A stretch of DNA of 25,528 nt from a virus, in IMG/VR virus record IMGVR_UViG_3300036770_004092, positions 1 to 25,528 of that record, one strand, 5' to 3'. This document shows, piece by piece, positions 4,769 to 17,446 of the stretch. The notes under the pieces were generated by a model. It made no database searches. It saw only the letters and a program-made list of their open reading frames with translations, and was not told the DNA's origin. Every line of letters begins with the position of its first letter. The first letter of the stretch is position 1. The position numbers and the translations under genes are program-made.

Positions 4769-5344
4769 ATGGCAAGACCGCGGACGACATCGAAACCACG
4801 ACCAAAGCGAAAGAAGCAGGCCGAGCCTGAGCGCGAGATCGTCAATGTGAATGGCTACACGGGCATGATGGTGCCCGAGGCCAAGGCCAAGGCCATCGCC
4901 GCGGCGCATGTCGCTGGCATGCCGGCCACGCAGATCTGTAAGGCGTTCAACTGCAACTGGCAGACTGTCATGGCGTTAGTAAGGAATCGTCCTGAGCTGC
5001 TCGAGAAGGCTCGCGAGATAACAGGGCGGAATTGGAAGACCTTGGCCGCTGTCGGCACCGCGGAACTGATTGACCGCATTCCAGATATGCGGAATCACGA
5101 GCTTACTATCATGTCGGCCGTATCAACGGAGAAATCAGAGCTGCTCTCCGGTGGAGCGACCCAGCGTGTTGAGCATGTGATGGCGCCTGCGGCTGACCAG
5201 TGGCAGGACTTTGTGAGCGGGCTAAGGAGCGCCCAAGTGATTGACGTGACGCCGGAACCGGTCGGCCCAGTGTCGGCCGAGCCGCAAAAGGCCGCAGCGC
5301 TGCCGGCGCCGGTTGTTGAGATTGAGACTGAGCCGCTTCAATAA
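4769..5344 (+). CDS. HTH protein resembling small terminase subunits
   Basis: A 191-residue protein. A basic N-terminus (ARPRTTSKPRPKRKKQ) is followed by a helix-turn-helix (AKAIAAAHVAGMPATQICKA, about residues 38-57, then NCNWQTVMALVRNRPELLEK). A central helical segment contains ELIDRIPDMRNHELTIMSAV and a KSELLSGGATQRVEHV stretch. The IP-x-x-x-x-x-E-L and K-x-x-L-L-x-G-x-x-T-x-R-x-E pattern is typical of small-terminase-like HTH proteins, which recognise phage DNA for packaging. The tail is Pro/Ala-rich. It sits about 10.5 kb before the large terminase gene, unusual but known. It could instead be a transcription regulator. It is the first gene after the terminator. Confidence 0.5.
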   Translation: MARPRTTSKPRPKRKKQAEPEREIVNVNGYTGMMVPEAKAKAIAAAHVAGMPATQICKAFNCNWQTVMALVRNRPELLEKAREITGRNWKTLAAVGTAELIDRIPDMRNHELTIMSAVSTEKSELLSGGATQRVEHVMAPAADQWQDFVSGLRSAQVIDVTPEPVGPVSAEPQKAAALPAPVVEIETEPLQ

Positions 5345-5543
5345 TATGCGAGCTGATTCTACCGCCGATTGCGCCTTATTGAGACAACAGAGTCCGTCTC
5401 ACTATAACAAGAGAATACTATCGGAGTCATGTATAGTTGAATTGATAATGAGACGGGGTACCAGGGGTCGGGGGGATCTGTCGTTCTCATTTTTTCATAA
5501 CCCCCCTACCGGTAGCCCCTTACAGAATTTTTTATAAAAAGCC
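5345..5543. other. AT-richer intergenic segment with dyads, possible promoter or insertion boundary
   Basis: About 200 bp without a convincing gene, clearly AT-richer than its surroundings. It contains TGAGAC (5380-5385) facing GTCTCA (5396-5401), an 8-bp inverted pair CCGTCTCA (5394-5401) and TGAGACGG (5449-5456), ACTAT...ATAGT around 5420, runs GGGG, GGGG, GGGGGG (5455-5475) mirrored by CCCCCC (5501-5506), and the palindrome CTACCGGTAG (5506-5515). The G and C runs could pair into a long hairpin followed by a T-rich tract. It separates the HTH gene from the first PD-(D/E)XK nuclease. Confidence 0.45.
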
Positions 5544-6053
5544 ATGCTGATCATCGCCGAAGACTCGCCCGAATACCTCTTTGATGTCAAGGAGGTTACG
5601 GTTCCAGCACTGCCATCAGAATACAGCGCAATTGGAAACGACGGCTCTTTTGAGGAACTATGCTTTCTGACCGCCGCAAGACAGCGCGGATACGTCACTT
5701 GGGTTCCTATTGGCCATAGCCAGAAGGCGGATGCCAGCGTGTGGCTGCCGCCTCACCGGCCGATCACTGTGCAGGTTAAGCGCGCCAGCTTTCACGGCGG
5801 ATCATGGCGCGTTGATGTCGCCTCAAGGCGCGGCGGTAAGGACGTGATCAAGCGCCGCAACAACGACCAGCCCATTGACAAGTATTGCCGCTACCAGCTT
5901 GGCGACTTCGATGTTCTCGCCGGATACGTCCCGCCGGCCAACGCCTTTAAGTTTTGGTCACTACCAGAGGTGGTTGGCCAGCTCAAGGTCACCTTCCGAG
6001 ACCTCTCAACCCTCAACAACTGGCACGTCATCGAAGACGCGCTCAAAGCCTAA
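5544..6053 (+). CDS. PD-(D/E)XK nuclease-like protein, paralogue 1
   Basis: A 169-residue protein. The core GSFEELCFLTAARQRGYVTW, then VPIGHSQKADASVW, then ITVQVKRASF gives E38, D63 and Q77-x-K79, the arrangement of the PD-(D/E)XK family that includes I-Ssp6803I-type endonucleases (a Gln replaces the usual acid before x-Lys). The C-terminal half has YQLGDFDVLAGYVPPANAF. The gene at 7324 encodes a clear paralogue with the same residues at a constant offset of four. It may be a free-standing homing-type endonuclease or a recombination nuclease; the choice is open. Its AT-rich upstream flank hints at a separate origin. Confidence 0.65.
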   Translation: MLIIAEDSPEYLFDVKEVTVPALPSEYSAIGNDGSFEELCFLTAARQRGYVTWVPIGHSQKADASVWLPPHRPITVQVKRASFHGGSWRVDVASRRGGKDVIKRRNNDQPIDKYCRYQLGDFDVLAGYVPPANAFKFWSLPEVVGQLKVTFRDLSTLNNWHVIEDALKA

Positions 6054-6056
6054 CTT

Positions 6057-6443
6057 ATGATCAAAACCATCCTCACCAAAGCAAAGTCAACCATCAGTCA
6101 ACCAGAACCCGCCCCCAAAGCTGTCCCCGAAGCCGCCCCCGAAGACCTCCTCAAAGCCGCTCCCCTCACCGACCAGCAGCTCGCTGAGACATCCGCCAAG
6201 CAGATCGGCTACCAGCCCGGCGACGAGGTTACCGGCATTGTGCTGCCCAAGAAGATCCCCAACGGCCGCATGCTGATGATCTCGGTCGAGCACTGGGGCG
6301 AGCCGGCGCTGTGCTCGGTGCAGAATGCCGCGGACTGGAGCGCCAATGAGCGTATCAAATGCCGCTACGTTAAGGCCAACGCCGAGGGCGTCCTGCTTTT
6401 CGAGAACCGCGACGGCATCCGCCGCAACAGGTGGCGTCGATGA
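6057..6443 (+). CDS. Hypothetical protein, possible OB-like fold
   Basis: A 128-residue protein. A Pro/Ala/Lys-rich N-terminal third (SQPEPAPKAVPEAAPEDL) is followed by a beta-rich domain (GYQPGDEVTGIVLPKKIPNG, MLMISVEHWGEPALCSV, GVLLFENRDG) that could be an S1/OB-like barrel. That reading is pattern-based and weak. It lies between a nuclease gene and the replication initiator, with its stop overlapping the initiator ATG (ATGA), so a role in DNA metabolism is plausible but unproven. Confidence 0.55.
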   Translation: MIKTILTKAKSTISQPEPAPKAVPEAAPEDLLKAAPLTDQQLAETSAKQIGYQPGDEVTGIVLPKKIPNGRMLMISVEHWGEPALCSVQNAADWSANERIKCRYVKANAEGVLLFENRDGIRRNRWRR

Positions 6444-7327
6444 GTGCAGTTTCCGCCAACTACGCAATCCGCGTTTGCGGGCTGCAGGATGTCGCCGCCA
6501 AGATGGTGCTGACTGCTCTGGCTTGGCAGGCGCACAAAAACACGCCGCACTTGGCCCACATGAGCAATGAGGATATCCGGCGGCATACCGGTCTCAAGAG
6601 CATCAATGGAGTCAAGGATGCCCTGCGCAGGCTAGTCGATGCTGGCGAGATCCAGGTGCGGGAAATTGGCGGTCGAACCTATGGCATCGGCCGCGCCGCA
6701 GACTTCGAGCTGCTCGGCGTCAAGCGGTGGATTGAGAGCGGCGAACCGTCAGAATTTGACGGTTTGGAGCAAGAGCAACCGTCAGAATTTGACGGTAAAG
6801 TGTCAGCATTTGACGGCAAACCGTCAGAATCTGACGGAAAACCGTCAGCATCTGATACCCATAGACATAGACTTAGTAAGACAGAAAGACAAAGCGCTGC
6901 CGCGCCCGCTTCGGCGACTTCATCGCCTTCGCTCCCTTCTTCGGAAAAAAAAGCACCAAAGCCCCAAAAAGCTCCCGCTCCCAAATTTGACCCAGCATCT
7001 ATTCCGCTGCCCCATGGTCCCGGCTTCCAAAAATGGTGGCTGCACTTCGTCGAGCACCGCAGCAACCCGATCAAGGGCCGCCGCAATCCCCTAACCCCGC
7101 TCGCCGCCAAGATCATCCTCGGCGAGCTGGCCGCGGTGAACGAGCAGCAAGCCGTCGAATCGATCAAGAAGTGCATCGCCGCGGGCTGGGTTAAGCCGTT
7201 CCCGCCGGAGCCGGCCACCGCGCCTAAGCTCGTCACTTTGCCACCCCAAGGCCAACCCCGCCAATCCGCCCTCGAGCGCTCCCTCGCCGAGATGCGGGCT
7301 AAGTATGGCAAGGAGGACGCAGCGTGA
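6440..7327 (+). CDS. Replication initiator, lambda-O-like, with origin iterons in its gene
   Basis: A 295-residue protein. Residues about 15-85 form a winged helix-turn-helix (MVLTALAWQAHKN, MSNEDIRRHTGLKSINGVKD, ALRRLVDAGEIQV, GGRTYGIG), as in phage replication initiators of the O/replisome-organiser type. Residues about 102-140 are a linker of heptad-like repeats (PSEFDG, VSAFDGK, PSESDGK, PSASD) encoded by five dyad iterons. Then comes a low-complexity Ala/Ser/Pro/Lys linker and a C-terminal helical domain (about 190-295) of the kind that recruits helicase machinery. Length and layout match lambda O (299 residues), whose gene also contains the origin. The start is the ATGA overlap at 6440; a GTG 9 bases earlier is less likely. 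A DnaB-type helicase is encoded downstream. Confidence 0.75.
   Translation: MSAVSANYAIRVCGLQDVAAKMVLTALAWQAHKNTPHLAHMSNEDIRRHTGLKSINGVKDALRRLVDAGEIQVREIGGRTYGIGRAADFELLGVKRWIESGEPSEFDGLEQEQPSEFDGKVSAFDGKPSESDGKPSASDTHRHRLSKTERQSAAAPASATSSPSLPSSEKKAPKPQKAPAPKFDPASIPLPHGPGFQKWWLHFVEHRSNPIKGRRNPLTPLAAKIILGELAAVNEQQAVESIKKCIAAGWVKPFPPEPATAPKLVTLPPQGQPRQSALERSLAEMRAKYGKEDAA
6745..6859. repeat. Five 19-bp dyad iterons: candidate phage origin of replication
   Basis: Copies start at 6745, 6778, 6799, 6820 and 6841. The first two are identical, ACCGTCAGAATTTGACGGT, with 7-bp inverted arms around a 5-nt centre; the others differ at a few positions and the last has a degenerate right arm. Spacing is 33, then 21, 21, 21 bp. 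The 21-bp steps are two helical turns and a whole number of codons. They lie inside the initiator gene, between DNA-binding and C-terminal domains, as in lambda. A less GC-rich segment (about 6851-6900, then an A-rich patch near 6945-6985) follows and may be the unwinding element. Confidence 0.75.
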
Positions 7328-7860
7328 CGCAGCCAATCTTGTTTGCGTTAGAGAGCGGCTTCCATGCTCCGGTCGCGAGGAGCGCTGGTACGTTATCTTC
7401 AAACCGCAAGGGCGAGATCGCCGAGACTCTTTTTATCGCTGGCGCAATGGTCCACGATTGGGAGGTCTTTGTCCCATTTGGCCACGCGCAGACCACGGAC
7501 GTTTGCATTGTTAAGCCGCGTAAGGCGCCGGTCAAAGTTCAGGTCAAAACGGCAGCCTTGGCTGAGGCGGGCGGATACCAAATTGGCACTCAAAAGTCTT
7601 CGGGCGGCAAGAAAAAGCACATGGCCTACCAAGCGGGAGACTTCGATGTTCTTGCCGCGTATTTGCAAGACCTTAACCAATTTGTTTTTTGGGCGGCCGA
7701 AGACATCATCAACAAGCAAACCGTTCGCTACTGTCCGACCCGCCACCGGCAACCTAACAACTGGGAGTTGCTCAACGATGTCGCGGAATCGCTAACAAAT
7801 TTTGGGTCTGGGACAGCCATTGTCCCACCCCTAGCTGTACAAATGTCCACCTCATCATGA
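7324..7860 (+). CDS. PD-(D/E)XK nuclease-like protein, paralogue 2
   Basis: A 178-residue protein with a GTG start overlapping the initiator stop (GTGA). The motifs KGEIAETLFIAGAMVHDWEV, VPFGHAQTTDVCIV and VKVQVKTAAL give E34, D59 and Q73-x-K75, the same residues as paralogue 1 shifted by four. The C-terminal YQAGDFDVLAAYLQDLNQFV also matches. This copy fits the nucleotide composition of its neighbours and is tightly coupled to the initiator gene, so it may serve in replication or recombination. The family includes I-Ssp6803I-type endonucleases; the actual substrate is unknown. Confidence 0.68.
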   Translation: MTQPILFALESGFHAPVARSAGTLSSNRKGEIAETLFIAGAMVHDWEVFVPFGHAQTTDVCIVKPRKAPVKVQVKTAALAEAGGYQIGTQKSSGGKKKHMAYQAGDFDVLAAYLQDLNQFVFWAAEDIINKQTVRYCPTRHRQPNNWELLNDVAESLTNFGSGTAIVPPLAVQMSTSS

Positions 7861-9189: not shown

Positions 9190-9399
9190 ATGAACGCTGA
9201 AACCAAACGAATACTCCGAGAACAATGGCCCCACGTTGCCGAAGACTTAATCGCCGTAGACGAAGCCGCCGACCGCTGGCTCAAGTGGCGCGCGGACTTG
9301 TATCGCCGCAAGAAGGAGCGCCGCGATGAGCGCCGGAGAGCTGAGCGTCTTCATGCTGCTGATCATGCTGCTCGCACTGATTGTCATAACGATGGGTGA
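9190..9399 (+). CDS. Basic hypothetical protein, first gene after the promoter
   Basis: A 69-residue product, MNAETKRILREQWPHVAEDL, helical, becoming strongly basic (RRKKERRDERRRAERLH). No clear Shine-Dalgarno is adjacent. The last third overlaps, in another frame, a small membrane-protein reading with a good ribosome binding site; either or both may be used. No family recognised; the charge suggests nucleic-acid binding. Confidence 0.5.
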   Translation: MNAETKRILREQWPHVAEDLIAVDEAADRWLKWRADLYRRKKERRDERRRAERLHAADHAARTDCHNDG

Positions 9400-9418
9400 C
9401 GACGACAACTTCGCCTAA
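9326..9418 (+). CDS. Overlapping 30-residue membrane protein
   Basis: The frame encodes MSAGELSVFMLLIMLLALIV followed by ITMGDDDNFA: a nearly ideal single transmembrane segment with an acidic tail. AAGGAG (9312-9317) is properly spaced from the ATG, and the stop lies one base before the helicase ATG. It is nested in another frame inside the preceding gene. Too short for statistics, but the hydrophobic run and the ribosome site favour a real gene. Confidence 0.5.
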   Translation: MSAGELSVFMLLIMLLALIVITMGDDDNFA

Positions 9419-9419
9419 A

Positions 9420-10817
9420 ATGAAACGCACCACACCACAATCCCCCGCCACCGAGAAGACCGTGCTCGGGTCGCTTATGGCCGACCCCAAGCTGTGCGAC
9501 GAAGTCGCCGGTCTCCACGCCGACCTGTTCTTCACGCCGTCCAACCGCTTCATCTTCGAGACCATCACCGAGGTCCGCGGCGAAGGCGGCACGCCGAACG
9601 TCATCGCCGTGACCCAGCGCATCGACGCGAAGCACAAATTGAACTTTGTGGGCGGCGCCGGTGCCCTCACCGAAATGCTTTCCTTGTCCGCCGGCGGACC
9701 CGCCGCGGTTGACTACCACGCGCAAACCCTGCGCGACCTCCATGCCCGCCGCCGCATCATCGACGCCTCCGTCGCGATGCAGGCGGCGGCGCAGGATATG
9801 GCGGCCAACGCCGACGACGTGCTGCAGCAGAGCGGCGAGAGCATCCTGAGCCTCTCGCTCGGCACCGCCACCGACAGCATGCGCCCCGCCGCTGAGATCG
9901 TGCCGGGCCTCCTCGAGGAATTGGAAGCGCTGATGACCAACCGCGTGCAGCTCGGCCTCAAGACCGGCTTCAAGGACTTCGACCAGACCACCGGCGGCCT
10001 CCGCGGCGGCACGCTGGCCATCATCGCCGGACGCCCCGCCATGGGCAAATCGGCCCTTATGATGAACATGGCCGACAACATGGCCCAGCGCGGCATCCCC
10101 GTCCTTTACTTCAGCTTGGAAATGCCCGCCCGCGAGCTGGCCAGCCGCGTCGTCCTCTCGCGCGCCGAGGCCAACACCGAACTCATCCGCAACGGCTTCC
10201 TCGACCACGCCGGCAAGCGCCGCATCGCCGACGCCGCCGACAAGTTTGCCAGCGAGCCGATGATCATCGACGACCGCGGCGGCCTCAGCCTGCTCGACAT
10301 CCGCGGACGCGCCCGCCTCGCCGTCCGCCGCTACGGCGTCAAAGCCATCTTCGTCGATTACCTGCAGCTCGTCAGCCACGCCACCGCCAACAGCCGCGAG
10401 AACGAAGTCGGCTACGTCTCCCGCGGCCTCAAGAGCATGGCCATGGAGTTGGACATCCCGGTCGTGGCCGCCGCCCAGGTCAACCGCCAAGCCGAGAACC
10501 GCAGCGACAACCGCCCCAAGATGTCCGACCTCCGCGAATCCGGCAGCATTGAGCAGGACGCCGACATCGTGTGCCTCGTCCACCGCCCCGCGTATTACGC
10601 CGTGGCCGACGAAGAACCGGACCCGCAGGACGCCGAGTTGATCGTCGCCAAGCACCGCGCCGGCCGCACCGGCACCTTGGCCATGACGTGGCGCCCGTCG
10701 CTCACCCGCTTCGAGGGCAGCACGCCCAGCAACATCGTCCCGGCCCCGCGCCTCACCGACGAACCCAACGGTGTCTACGCGCCGGACAAGCAACTTTGGG
10801 AGGCACTGAACGAATGA
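9420..10817 (+). CDS. dnaB: Replicative DnaB-type DNA helicase
   Basis: A 465-residue protein of the usual DnaB length. The N-terminal helical domain (ATEKTVLGSLMADP, HADLFFTPSN, AVDYHAQTL) precedes a RecA-like motor: Walker A GRPAMGKSA (about 204-212), LYFSLEMPARELASR, Walker B AIFVDYLQL (Asp about 313), PVVAAAQVNRQ, MSDLRESGSIEQDAD, and the RAGRTGT arginine-finger region. It unwinds the fork as a hexamer with 5'-3' polarity. Its gene lies just downstream of a TGTCCAT-controlled promoter, and the upstream initiator would load it. The ATG at 9420 is chosen over a GTG 24 bases earlier because of the preceding stop and DnaB family starts. No intein is seen. Confidence 0.93.
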   Translation: MKRTTPQSPATEKTVLGSLMADPKLCDEVAGLHADLFFTPSNRFIFETITEVRGEGGTPNVIAVTQRIDAKHKLNFVGGAGALTEMLSLSAGGPAAVDYHAQTLRDLHARRRIIDASVAMQAAAQDMAANADDVLQQSGESILSLSLGTATDSMRPAAEIVPGLLEELEALMTNRVQLGLKTGFKDFDQTTGGLRGGTLAIIAGRPAMGKSALMMNMADNMAQRGIPVLYFSLEMPARELASRVVLSRAEANTELIRNGFLDHAGKRRIADAADKFASEPMIIDDRGGLSLLDIRGRARLAVRRYGVKAIFVDYLQLVSHATANSRENEVGYVSRGLKSMAMELDIPVVAAAQVNRQAENRSDNRPKMSDLRESGSIEQDADIVCLVHRPAYYAVADEEPDPQDAELIVAKHRAGRTGTLAMTWRPSLTRFEGSTPSNIVPAPRLTDEPNGVYAPDKQLWEALNE

Positions 10818-11191
10818 TCAACAGCCGCCAAAAAGGCGCCGCCTTCGAGCGCGAAGTCGCCAAGGCGTTGACCGCGGAGGGTTTTCCGGCCAAGCGCGGG
10901 GCGCAGGTGTCGCAGGGATCTTGGGGAATCTCCGCACCAGACATCGTCGTCCCGTGCTTGCCGGACTTCCACTTTGAGTGCAAGCGCCACGGCCGCGCGC
11001 GGTTTGACCTAGACGCCGCCATGGCCCAAGCGCAACGCGATAAGCTCCCCGAGCAATATCCCGTTGTTATCCACCGCAAGGACGATTGCCAGCGGCTTTA
11101 CACCCTCAACGAAGAAGGCTTCTGCGCCCTCCTGCGTCACTCCGACTTTCCTATCCAACCAAAAACACAACAACGCGAAATAACAACATGA
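10814..11191 (+). CDS. Holliday-junction resolvase-like PD-(D/E)XK nuclease
   Basis: A 125-residue protein. SRQKGAAFEREVAKALTAEG supplies the catalytic Glu (E12 or E14), SAPDIVVP the Asp (D43) and FHFECKRHG the E55-x-K57 pair: a textbook E-PD-ExK site as in archaeal-type Hjc resolvases and related phage nucleases. It probably cleaves branched DNA formed in replication and recombination. The gene overlaps the helicase stop (ATGA) and its stop overlaps the ssDNA-binding protein start. The C-terminal 30 residues are less conserved-looking and partly overlap the next gene's leader. Confidence 0.75.
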   Translation: MINSRQKGAAFEREVAKALTAEGFPAKRGAQVSQGSWGISAPDIVVPCLPDFHFECKRHGRARFDLDAAMAQAQRDKLPEQYPVVIHRKDDCQRLYTLNEEGFCALLRHSDFPIQPKTQQREITT

Positions 11192-11769
11192 GCAAAACCC
11201 TAACCACACCCGCCGGTATCGCCAGATACCCTCACCTCAACACCCCGGACAAGAAATACGCCACCGCGGACAAACCGCACGGCGAATACAAAGTAAACCT
11301 CGAGATGTCCAACGAGGACGCCGAGCCGTTCATCAAGCAGATCGAAGCCATCTTCTCCGCGTTCCTCGCCGAGAAAAAAGCCGAGCTGAAAAAGGACAAG
11401 CTCAAACAGCACGATGCCCCATGGCTGGAAAACGACGGCATGACGCAGCTCAAGCTCCGCGTCAAAGCCATGGGCAAAAGCAGGGACGGCGAGACCTTCT
11501 CGCGCCAACCCAAGCTCTTCAACGCCGCGGGCGAAGTCATCACCGACAACATCGGCGGCGGCTCCAAGCTCAAGGTCGCGGTCGTGCCCTACTGCTGGTA
11601 CACGGCGGCACTGGGAGCTGGCATTACCCTGCAGCCCAAAGCCGTCCAAGTCCTCGACTTGGTCACCTGGGGCGACGGCGGCAGCGCCACCTCCTACGGC
11701 TTCGATGTCAGCGAGGCCAAGCCCGAGTCGCGCAAAACCGGAACGGACGACGAAGAGATTAGCTGGTAA
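11188..11769 (+). CDS. Phage single-stranded DNA-binding protein (gp2.5/DUF2815-like)
   Basis: A 193-residue protein. The start TPAGIARYPHLNTPDKKYAT with HGEYKVNLEM, central WLENDGMTQLKLRVKAMGKS, and GGGSKLKVAVVPYCWYTAAL match phage ssDNA-binding proteins of the gp2.5/DUF2815 type, an OB fold. The acidic C-terminus ends TDDEEISW, acid residues closed by an aromatic, a hallmark of SSB tails that bind partner enzymes. It coats ssDNA at forks and recombination intermediates. The ATGA overlap with the resolvase gene and a nearby exonuclease gene support this role. The leader is A/C-rich without a clear Shine-Dalgarno. Confidence 0.75.
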   Translation: MSKTLTTPAGIARYPHLNTPDKKYATADKPHGEYKVNLEMSNEDAEPFIKQIEAIFSAFLAEKKAELKKDKLKQHDAPWLENDGMTQLKLRVKAMGKSRDGETFSRQPKLFNAAGEVITDNIGGGSKLKVAVVPYCWYTAALGAGITLQPKAVQVLDLVTWGDGGSATSYGFDVSEAKPESRKTGTDDEEISW

Positions 11770-15179: not shown

Positions 15180-15827
15180 GTGAAAAGCAATCAATCGCCC
15201 GCATTTACGCGGGTCAATAAATACATCTTTGACGACAAGGCGTGGTCTTGGTCGCTGCCAAGCGGCACGACTTGTCCTGGTGCTCTGCTGTGCTTGGCCA
15301 AGGCTGACCGGCACACCGGAAAACTGTGGAACGGCCCCAAGCAGAAGTTCCGCTGCTATTCCGCGGTCACCGAGAGGTTCCCGTCAGTGCGCACGCGCCT
15401 GTGGACAAACTTCGACGCCGTCAAAGGTAAGTCACCGGATGAGGTCTGCAAGGTTCTGTCATGCATGCCTCGCAAAGCGCAGCGGGTACGCATCCACACC
15501 GCCGGCGACTTTTTCTCGCAAGGCTATTTCGACGGATGGCTGAAATTCTGCGCGCAGAATGAGCATGTGCGCTTTTGGGCTTTTACCAAAAGCCTGCCGT
15601 TTTGGGTCGCTCGCCTCGGAAGCATTCCTCGCAACCTCGTATTGCAGGCCAGCGTGGGAGGGCGGCACGACGAGCTGATCGGCAAGCACGGGCTGAAATA
15701 CGCGCAGGTGGTTTGGAGCCGCGAGGAGGCCGCGCGCTTGGGGCTGGCCATCGATGAAGACGACTACCTTGCCGCCTACGGCAGCAAGCCGTTCGCGCTG
15801 CTTGAAAATTTCACGGCACGCAAATGA
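15180..15827 (+). CDS. Gp88-domain protein
   Basis: A 215-residue protein with a GTG start 3 bases after a GAGGAG tract. SWSLPSGTTCPGALLCLAKA, RCYSAVTERFPSVRTRLWTN, VRIHTAGDFFSQGYFDGWLK and WAFTKSLPFWVARLG follow the motif order of the mycobacteriophage gene-product-88 family: S-L-P-x-G-x-T-C-P-G-A, C-Y, R-I-H-x-x-G-D-F-F-S, and a T-K-S strand. The biochemical function is not established as far as I know; conserved Cys, His and Asp suggest a metal-dependent enzyme. The gene overlaps the large terminase start by ATGA, placing it in the packaging operon. Confidence 0.75.
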   Translation: MKSNQSPAFTRVNKYIFDDKAWSWSLPSGTTCPGALLCLAKADRHTGKLWNGPKQKFRCYSAVTERFPSVRTRLWTNFDAVKGKSPDEVCKVLSCMPRKAQRVRIHTAGDFFSQGYFDGWLKFCAQNEHVRFWAFTKSLPFWVARLGSIPRNLVLQASVGGRHDELIGKHGLKYAQVVWSREEAARLGLAIDEDDYLAAYGSKPFALLENFTARK

Positions 15828-17446
15828 ACGAGCACCAGCAGAGATTTAAGCCGTCGCCGCATCCGGTTATGGCGCTCGACTACGAGCTGCTTGAAAAGCT
15901 GGGACCGGAAGACGGCTGGAAATACTTAAAAACGAGGGAAGAACTGATCGCCCGCGAGGCCAGCGATCCGTTTAGGTATGGGTTTGTCCCGCCGATCTGG
16001 AAGCGCGCCTCCGATCTGCTGGAAAAGCACCGCGAGCTGCTCGTCATGGGCGGAAATAGAAGCGGCAAGACCGAGTGGGCGGCGCGCGAGGCCATCCGCG
16101 TCATGTATACCAAGCCCGGCTCCGTCGTCTGGGCGCTCACGACCACCGCGCCGGTGAGCATTGAGACCCAGCAGCCCCGCATCTGGAAATACATCCCGCC
16201 GGAGTGGAAGTCCGCGAGAAAATCGCAGGTCACCAACATCACCTACAGCGTGAAGGGCGGCTTTACCGAGGGCCGCCTCGTCGCACCGAACGGCAGCCAG
16301 CTAACCTTCCGCAATTACGCGCAGGATCTTTCCACCGTAGAAGGCTCCTCACTCGATTATGCCTGGGCAGACGAGCTTATTCCTATCGACTGGCTGCAGA
16401 CGCTCCGCTTCCGCCTCGTAGACCGCAACGGCATGATGGCCGTCACGTTCACGCCGGTGCAAGGCTGGTCGCCGGTTGTGGCCGATTATCTCAACGGCGC
16501 CACCGCCATCGAGGAGGCCGACGCCGACCTCCTGCCGCTGCGCGACGAGAAGGGCCAAGTCAAGGGCTACGAGAAAGTGCCTATTGAACAGCGCAACGCC
16601 AAGGGCCGCCCGATCCTGTATTTCCACACCAACAGCAACCCGTGGTCCGGCTGGGACCGCATGCGCAAGGAACTGCAGGGCGAGACCAAAGAAAAGATCC
16701 TCACGCGCGCCTATGGCGTGCCGACCAAAGCCATCAGCGGCCGGTTCCCCTTGTTCAACCCCAAAGTCCACGTCATCCGCCACAGCGATGTCCCACAAGG
16801 CACCCGCTACCACTGGGTCGATCCGGCGTCCGGCAAAAACTGGGCCATGATCTGGACCGTCCACGACACCGCCGGCCGCACCGTGATTTATCGCGAATGG
16901 CCCAGCCAAACCGACTACATCGAAGGCATCGGCTACGCCGGCGAGTGGGCTATCCCAGACGGCAAACGCCTCGACGGCGCCCCGGGTCCGGCGCAGCAAG
17001 ATTTCGGCTTCGGCCTTGAGCGCTACCGCGACGAGATCCTGCGCGTCGAAGGCGGCGAGGAGATTTTCGAGAGATGGATGGATTCGCGCTACGGCAACGC
17101 TCGCACGCTGGCCAAGGAATCGCCCACGACCTTGATCGAAGAAATGTCCGCCCTCGGCATGGACTTCACCGCCACGCCCGGCGACAGCATCGACGAAGGC
17201 GTGTCGATGATCAACGACGCCCTGTCATACAACCCCGACAAGCCGGTCGATTCCCGTAACCAGCCCAAGCTCTACATTTCCGAGAACTGCAAAAACGTCA
17301 TCCACTGCCTGCAGACTTATACAGGCGCGGACGGCAAGCGCTCGGCGAACAAGGACTTCGTTGACCTGGTTCGCTACGTCACGCTCTCCGACGCCATCAA
17401 CGTCGAGGGCGACATCCTGCGATCCCGCGGAGGCGGCAGCTACTAA
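15824..17446 (+). CDS. terL: Terminase large subunit (ATPase and nuclease)
   Basis: A 540-residue protein. The ATPase domain has Walker A GGNRSGKT (76-83) and Walker B DYAWADE (178-184, with the catalytic Glu). The C-terminal RNase H-like nuclease begins YHWVDPASGKNWAM (D333), with further acids at MDSRYGNA (D420) and KDFVDLVRY (D511/D514). It cuts concatemeric DNA and pumps it into the procapsid through the portal. Full length for the family. ATGA overlap with the Gp88 gene. The candidate small subunit is far upstream (4769), with none adjacent. Confidence 0.9.
   Translation: MNEHQQRFKPSPHPVMALDYELLEKLGPEDGWKYLKTREELIAREASDPFRYGFVPPIWKRASDLLEKHRELLVMGGNRSGKTEWAAREAIRVMYTKPGSVVWALTTTAPVSIETQQPRIWKYIPPEWKSARKSQVTNITYSVKGGFTEGRLVAPNGSQLTFRNYAQDLSTVEGSSLDYAWADELIPIDWLQTLRFRLVDRNGMMAVTFTPVQGWSPVVADYLNGATAIEEADADLLPLRDEKGQVKGYEKVPIEQRNAKGRPILYFHTNSNPWSGWDRMRKELQGETKEKILTRAYGVPTKAISGRFPLFNPKVHVIRHSDVPQGTRYHWVDPASGKNWAMIWTVHDTAGRTVIYREWPSQTDYIEGIGYAGEWAIPDGKRLDGAPGPAQQDFGFGLERYRDEILRVEGGEEIFERWMDSRYGNARTLAKESPTTLIEEMSALGMDFTATPGDSIDEGVSMINDALSYNPDKPVDSRNQPKLYISENCKNVIHCLQTYTGADGKRSANKDFVDLVRYVTLSDAINVEGDILRSRGGGSY

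Follow-up and report, generated by a model that had tools for sequence, protein, structure and literature searches.

A probable lambda/P22-type replication origin inside the initiator gene of an uncultured phage, and comparative evidence for the joint exchange of its iterons and DNA-binding domain

Origins within initiator genes and the locus analysed

Iterons lying inside the gene of a diverged initiator have been described for phages lambda, P22 and L; P22 has four of them and phage L six different ones (PMC8022706). In lambda, four iterons and an AT-rich stretch of 38 bp occupy positions 39034-39160, within gene O (PMC3349717), and the layout of this origin is also given elsewhere (PMC7466680). 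In the PLE satellites of Vibrio cholerae, the DNA-binding domain and the origin have been swapped together (PMC8263062).

The window analysed here is a virus record of 25,528 bases, possibly a fragment, whose relevant features are collected in Table 1. Judging from sequence comparison, the dyad array that it carries is probably (about 90%) part of a lambda/P22-type theta origin embedded in the gene of its own initiator. This reading is based on the match of the protein to an O-like profile, on its organisation as a winged helix, a disordered linker and a C-terminal domain, on the AT tract directly following the iterons, on the helicase gene downstream, and on the recurrence of iterons at this site in all the homologues surveyed. 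A first-pass annotation of this DNA had already proposed a lambda-type origin inside the initiator gene, and these observations support it. Its further suggestion of a convergent arrangement or an undescribed origin family does not hold, because PHROG 678 is common to this initiator and lambda O and because origins of this kind have been published (PMC8022706). The kind of origin being known, what is new is the phage group, the number and breadth of cassette types found on shared C-domains, and a covarying hairpin.

Table 1. Position, strand and basis of assignment of the features of the window
Feature	Position	Strand	Basis or remark
O-like replication initiator, 295 aa	6440..7327	+	ATG 6440; PHROG 678 match
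N-terminal winged-helix DNA-binding domain (predicted), residues 1-100	6440..6739	+	AlphaFold2, Foldseek
Iteron 1, ACCGTCAGAATTTGACGGT	6745..6763		read directly from sequence
Iteron 2, ACCGTCAGAATTTGACGGT	6778..6796		read directly from sequence
Iteron 3, AGTGTCAGCATTTGACGGC, left arm decayed	6799..6817		read directly from sequence
Iteron 4, ACCGTCAGAATCTGACGGA	6820..6838		read directly from sequence
Iteron 5, ACCGTCAGCATCTGATACC, right arm decayed	6841..6859		read directly from sequence
AT-rich tract, likely unwinding element	6853..6894		directly after the iterons
Small hairpin GGCGAC-TTC-ATCGCC, 5 pairs here	6913..6927		at the 3' boundary of the cassette that is exchanged
C-terminal domain, starting near residue 184, presumed to recruit the helicase	6989..7324	+	homologue alignment
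PDDEXK_5 nuclease gene	7324..7860	+	Pfam 1.4e-12; overlaps initiator stop codon
DnaB-type replicative helicase, presumed initiator partner	9396..10817	+	Pfam DnaB_C 2.9e-87, DnaB 6e-15; PHROG 19 3.8e-101
Gp2.5-like single-strand binding protein	11179..11769	+	PHROG 112 6.8e-29; Pfam SBB_T7 8.5e-15

In such an origin, each dyad iteron of about 19 bp would be bound by the winged helix at the N-terminus of the initiator, probably in dimeric form. The helically phased copies would wrap into an 'O-some', the AT-rich tract beside them would melt, and the C-terminal domain would recruit the phage's own DnaB-type helicase. The array would thereby act as the origin in a layout resembling that of P22 gp18/gp12, no lambda P-like loader having been found.

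Lambda and the window have in common a PHROG 678 initiator with an N-terminal DNA-binding part and a C-domain, dyad iterons between these domains (codons 103-140 of 295 here, 117-144 of 299 in lambda O), and an AT tract directly after the iterons, on their C-terminal side. They differ in the steps between iterons (20/24/23 in lambda versus 33/21/21/21) and in the AT tract, which is weaker in the window; pairwise BLASTP of the two initiators detects no similarity. Lambda sensu stricto, defined by O and P, also has a P-type loader gene next to the initiator gene. In contrast, between the initiator and the DnaB-type helicase of the window no P-type loader is found, the interval holding the PDDEXK nuclease gene and small ORFs without PHROG replication match; the layout is therefore P22-like. 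Indeed, P22 genes 18 and 12, as well as phage L, show the same succession of an O-like initiator, in-gene iterons and a DnaB-type helicase. In the window and in 24 relatives, the gene of an O-like initiator has that of a phage DnaB-type helicase on its downstream side. With respect to P22 and L, the window belongs to a different, uncultured phage group, has a different iteron sequence, and has the nuclease gene and several small genes inserted between initiator and helicase.

The relatives, designated by L-numbers, are virus contigs from IMG/VR. In 24 of them, as far as each contig extends, the gene order is an HTH-like ORF, ORF128, the initiator, a PDDEXK-like nuclease, small ORFs and the DnaB helicase. 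A relative of the nuclease lies 3' of the initiator in 24/24 relatives checked, with a very variable sequence (24-63% identity). An ORF related to this nuclease is also found upstream, at 5544-6053 in the window and in some relatives. In the window and in 3/6 relative contigs (G001, G002, G006), the cumulative GC skew reaches its global maximum about 1 kb 5' of the initiator; the other three show a local peak near the initiator gene. The skew, one of the checks named in the first-pass annotation, is thus compatible with the proposed origin but does not decide for it, since the extremum has the sign contrary to the usual convention, being a maximum, and effects of gene orientation are possible. 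In the window, the maximum falls in the region 5000-6500. The large terminase subunit (15824-17446) is only 33% identical to that of the nearest annotated phage relative, Phage C75C1, and the phage group is thus poorly sampled.

Initiator, iterons and adjoining elements

The start of the initiator at its ATG is backed by an MS[VA] alignment of 20 homologues; here it overlaps the stop codon of the preceding ORF, and the initiator stop overlaps the GTG of the nuclease gene. Over residues 37-275, the protein has a match to PHROG 678 ('replication initiation O-like') with an E-value of 3.8e-12. Lambda O matches the same family at 1.7e-35 and relatives of the window do so down to 8e-26; one close homologue, L002, gave no PHROG match. 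A Pfam search of the window initiator returned no family, and a search of the PDB by sequence nothing useful. No relatives were retrieved either when annotated phages were searched by tblastn with the initiator or when genome contigs were scanned with the terminase and with an alignment of initiators. The AlphaFold2 model shows helices and a two-stranded wing at the N-terminus, with pLDDT values of 87-93 for residues 1-70 and 73-90 for residues 71-100; the putative recognition helix is KSINGVKDALRRL. Residues 104-172, encoded by the iterons, the AT tract and the hairpin region, are predicted to form a disordered linker, and the C-domain is modelled as helices. Among viral proteins, Foldseek matches include phage replication proteins, a putative protein O and lambda-O N-terminal domains; superposition of the full-length models is poor overall because of the linker. 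Against solved structures, no match falls below an E-value of 0.001.

According to the first-pass annotation, five 19-bp dyads lie at 6745-6859 with steps of 33, 21, 21 and 21, between the winged-helix and C-terminal domains of the 295-residue initiator and with the reading frame kept throughout. Direct reading agrees on all these points, the five copies being in one frame. The dyads have 8/9 pairs in three copies and 4/9 in copies 3 and 5. When the core motif is searched with up to 3 mismatches, 7 strand-hits are obtained, all within the array, for 0.78 expected, and 0/100 shuffles reach 7. The array has 32/45 dyad pairs, compared with a mean of 20.6 +/- 3.2 in 20,000 synonymous redraws keeping the protein fixed (P 5e-5), and its repeat-and-dyad score is 24 versus at most 16 among 60 synonymous recodings. 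Dyad symmetry in the window array therefore exceeds what the peptide requires. The serine codon TCA, among the rarer ones in this phage (27/307), is present in 5/5 iteron copies. That a 21-bp step keeps the frame is coincidental, 21 being both 2 x 10.5 and 3 x 7. The exact window iteron is found in 8 viral contigs, two of them known array-bearing relatives and the other six with single stray matches. An Rfam search gave one sub-threshold isrG match (21 vs 100 bits) on the inverted repeats, which was taken as chance.

Iterons were also sought in homologous initiators, a check suggested by the first-pass annotation. The survey covered 45 ORFs, that of the window and 44 homologues. All 45 have a dyad array at codons ~91-146, each scoring above the maximum of 60 synonymous recodings, and the site is the same in every homologue. 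The 44 homologues have 2-6 copies adjoining an AT tract. The weakest arrays are those of L061, L064 and L068 (two detected copies, score 11-12 for a recoding maximum of 9-10), followed by those of L047, L092 and L144 (16 for 13-14). Steps are mostly 21-24, with 15, 17 and 32-33 also observed. As positive controls, the same code recovered the four annotated iterons of lambda (steps 20, 24, 23) and four repeats in P22 gene 18, with spacing identical to that of lambda. In a grouping of our own, about 11 iteron types can be distinguished. They are GGGTCA-N-TGACCC, GGTCTC-N-GAGACC, GGTGCA-N-TGCACC, GGTCCAA-N-TTGGACC, GGTCTAA-N-TTAGACC, GGTGTC-N-GACACC, CCGTCAGAATCTGACGG, GTGTCGCCATCTGACAC of L080, GTGTCAGCGTGACA of L047, TGACGCAGCGTCA and TGACAATTTGTCA. 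The A-type loci L002-L004 keep both the winged helix and the iterons, with 5, 6 and 5 copies and 33/21 steps as in the window; in L097, also A-type, the outer copies are decayed.

The AT tract is 64% AT, compared with 40% for the whole ORF, of which it is the AT-richest 42-bp window; the corresponding values are 79% in lambda and 74-79% in P22. Its position relative to the iterons is the same in homologues, lambda and P22, and throughout the surveyed ORFs the AT-richest 42 bp overlap the array or directly follow it. After the AT tract, a 15-nt hairpin, GGCGAY-NNN-RTCGCC, is found in 95/95 homologous ORFs examined, many of them nearly identical to one another. In a set of 27 distinct sequences, pairing holds in 96.9% of cells and 3/6 pairs have changed on both sides; as the search was anchored on GGC-N9-GCC, independent evidence comes from the inner three pairs alone, and these are the covarying ones. 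None of 500 shuffles matches, and slid controls likewise do not. The residues encoded by the hairpin change along with it (A-T-S-S, A-I-S-S, A-T-A-L, A-A-S-Q), so that the nucleic acid itself appears to be constrained. The lambda sequence has an inverted repeat, GTCAGAG...CTCTGAC, just 3' of its AT tract, and a palindrome has been described at this site.

Other readings of the array

It may be asked whether selection acts on the peptide, the PSEFDGK repeats of the linker being functional and the DNA dyads a by-product. All copies do lie in one frame in the window and in A-type relatives. However, the dyads are lost on synonymous recoding. Moreover, in most types other than that of the window, the iterons of one array lie in two or three reading frames and encode unrelated peptides, for instance GLRMRP / VSERDP / CQNETP, which argues for selection on DNA rather than on peptide. 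Since, in addition, the linker is predicted to be disordered, the PSEFDGK repeat is itself most likely the by-product. Selection on the peptide was accordingly rejected as scarcely credible, and the joint constraint on DNA and protein put forward in the first-pass annotation falls with it. The same annotation had considered homologues that would keep the peptide repeat and lose the dyads; the reverse is found, dyads being kept and the peptide not.

The 21-bp units look duplicated and the cassette has clearly been exchanged by recombination (see below), as would be expected of a recombination seam or a recent tandem duplication with no binding function. Yet arrays of unrelated sequence keep a similar copy number, place and near-helical spacing; they follow the DNA-binding domain, and in the whole relative contigs checked they are confined to the initiator gene. 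The stretch common to all types is the hairpin region and not the iterons. This reading is in our opinion highly improbable. An autoregulatory operator, where the winged-helix protein would bind the dyads so as to repress or modulate its own operon, the array having no role as an origin, deserves consideration because a winged helix and dyads also describe repressor-operator pairs and because the folds matched in the PDB are those of generic winged-helix proteins, with many regulators among them. The array is nevertheless located about 300 bp inside the coding region and not at a promoter, 2-6 phased copies persist in homologues beside an AT tract, and the protein, whose C-domain is conserved, has its matches among replication initiators. 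An operator alone is thus unlikely. Iteron binding could still affect transcription, which is compatible with an origin role, the two being not exclusive.

Exchange of the winged helix with the iterons

Comparative evidence indicates that, in the proposed lambda/P22-type origin, the iterons are cognate with the N-terminal winged-helix domain and that both swap as a cassette; among the relatives, such joint swaps have occurred many times. Over 31 loci, iteron distance follows N-domain distance (Mantel r 0.67, partial 0.67, 0/2000 permutations) but not C-domain distance (0.04, partial 0.01), and the distances of the two domains are uncorrelated (r 0.04); many of these loci are related, so that the permutation count should be read as indicative and not as a strict probability. 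Individual pairs illustrate the pattern. The window and L015 have C-domains 90% identical, N-domains only 31% identical and different iterons, and L031 and L092 share 100% of the C-domain and 57-59% of the N-domain, again with different iterons. Conversely, the iterons are the same in L015 and L031 (N-domain 100%, C-domain 53-55%) and in L047 and L092 (98% and 50-53%). L005 and L006, with a C-domain ~90% identical to that of the window, have another winged helix and a linker array of GGTCTCAGAATGAGACC in three frames.

PLE RepA resembles this group in that its C-terminal domain is kept while the DNA-binding domain varies along with the iterons (PMC8263062). It differs by its RepA_N domain, its intergenic origin and its protein family, and the Odn nuclease is the driver proposed for PLE. 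Tentatively, and with more doubt than confidence, an actively diversifying system of origin types may be imagined in the present group. Winged helix, iterons and AT tract would form a cassette, delimited by the start of the gene and by the covarying hairpin, that is swapped across a set of C-domains; the pressure might come from origin-directed interference, like that of Odn against PLE origins, or from superinfecting relatives. The hairpin would then be either an additional origin element, serving in priming or in the entry of the helicase on single strands, or the exchange seam.

About 11 iteron types, joined to the winged helices that match them on a small number of shared C-domains, constitute a natural mix-and-match panel, which extends what is known from lambda, P22 and L to many phages. 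It also provides a rule for finding origins in uncultured phages, namely to look for dyads arrayed within the linker of an O-like gene, with the AT maximum after them. Between GGTCTC (B1) and GGTGCA (B2) iterons, the recognition helix changes from ARATVARC to ARRTVADC, and the wing changes as well. This covariation is seen twice, in L031/L048 and in L082/L093, and both cases may share one exchange event. Differences in recognition helix and wing that track the iteron half-site possibly reflect a DNA-recognition code, and initiator-origin specificity could be tested residue by residue in such near-identical proteins, for example with ARATVARC/GGTCTC and ARRTVADC/GGTGCA. In residues 48-80, the winged helices of L031 and L048, like those of L082 and L093, are near-identical, the helix and wing differing with the half-site.
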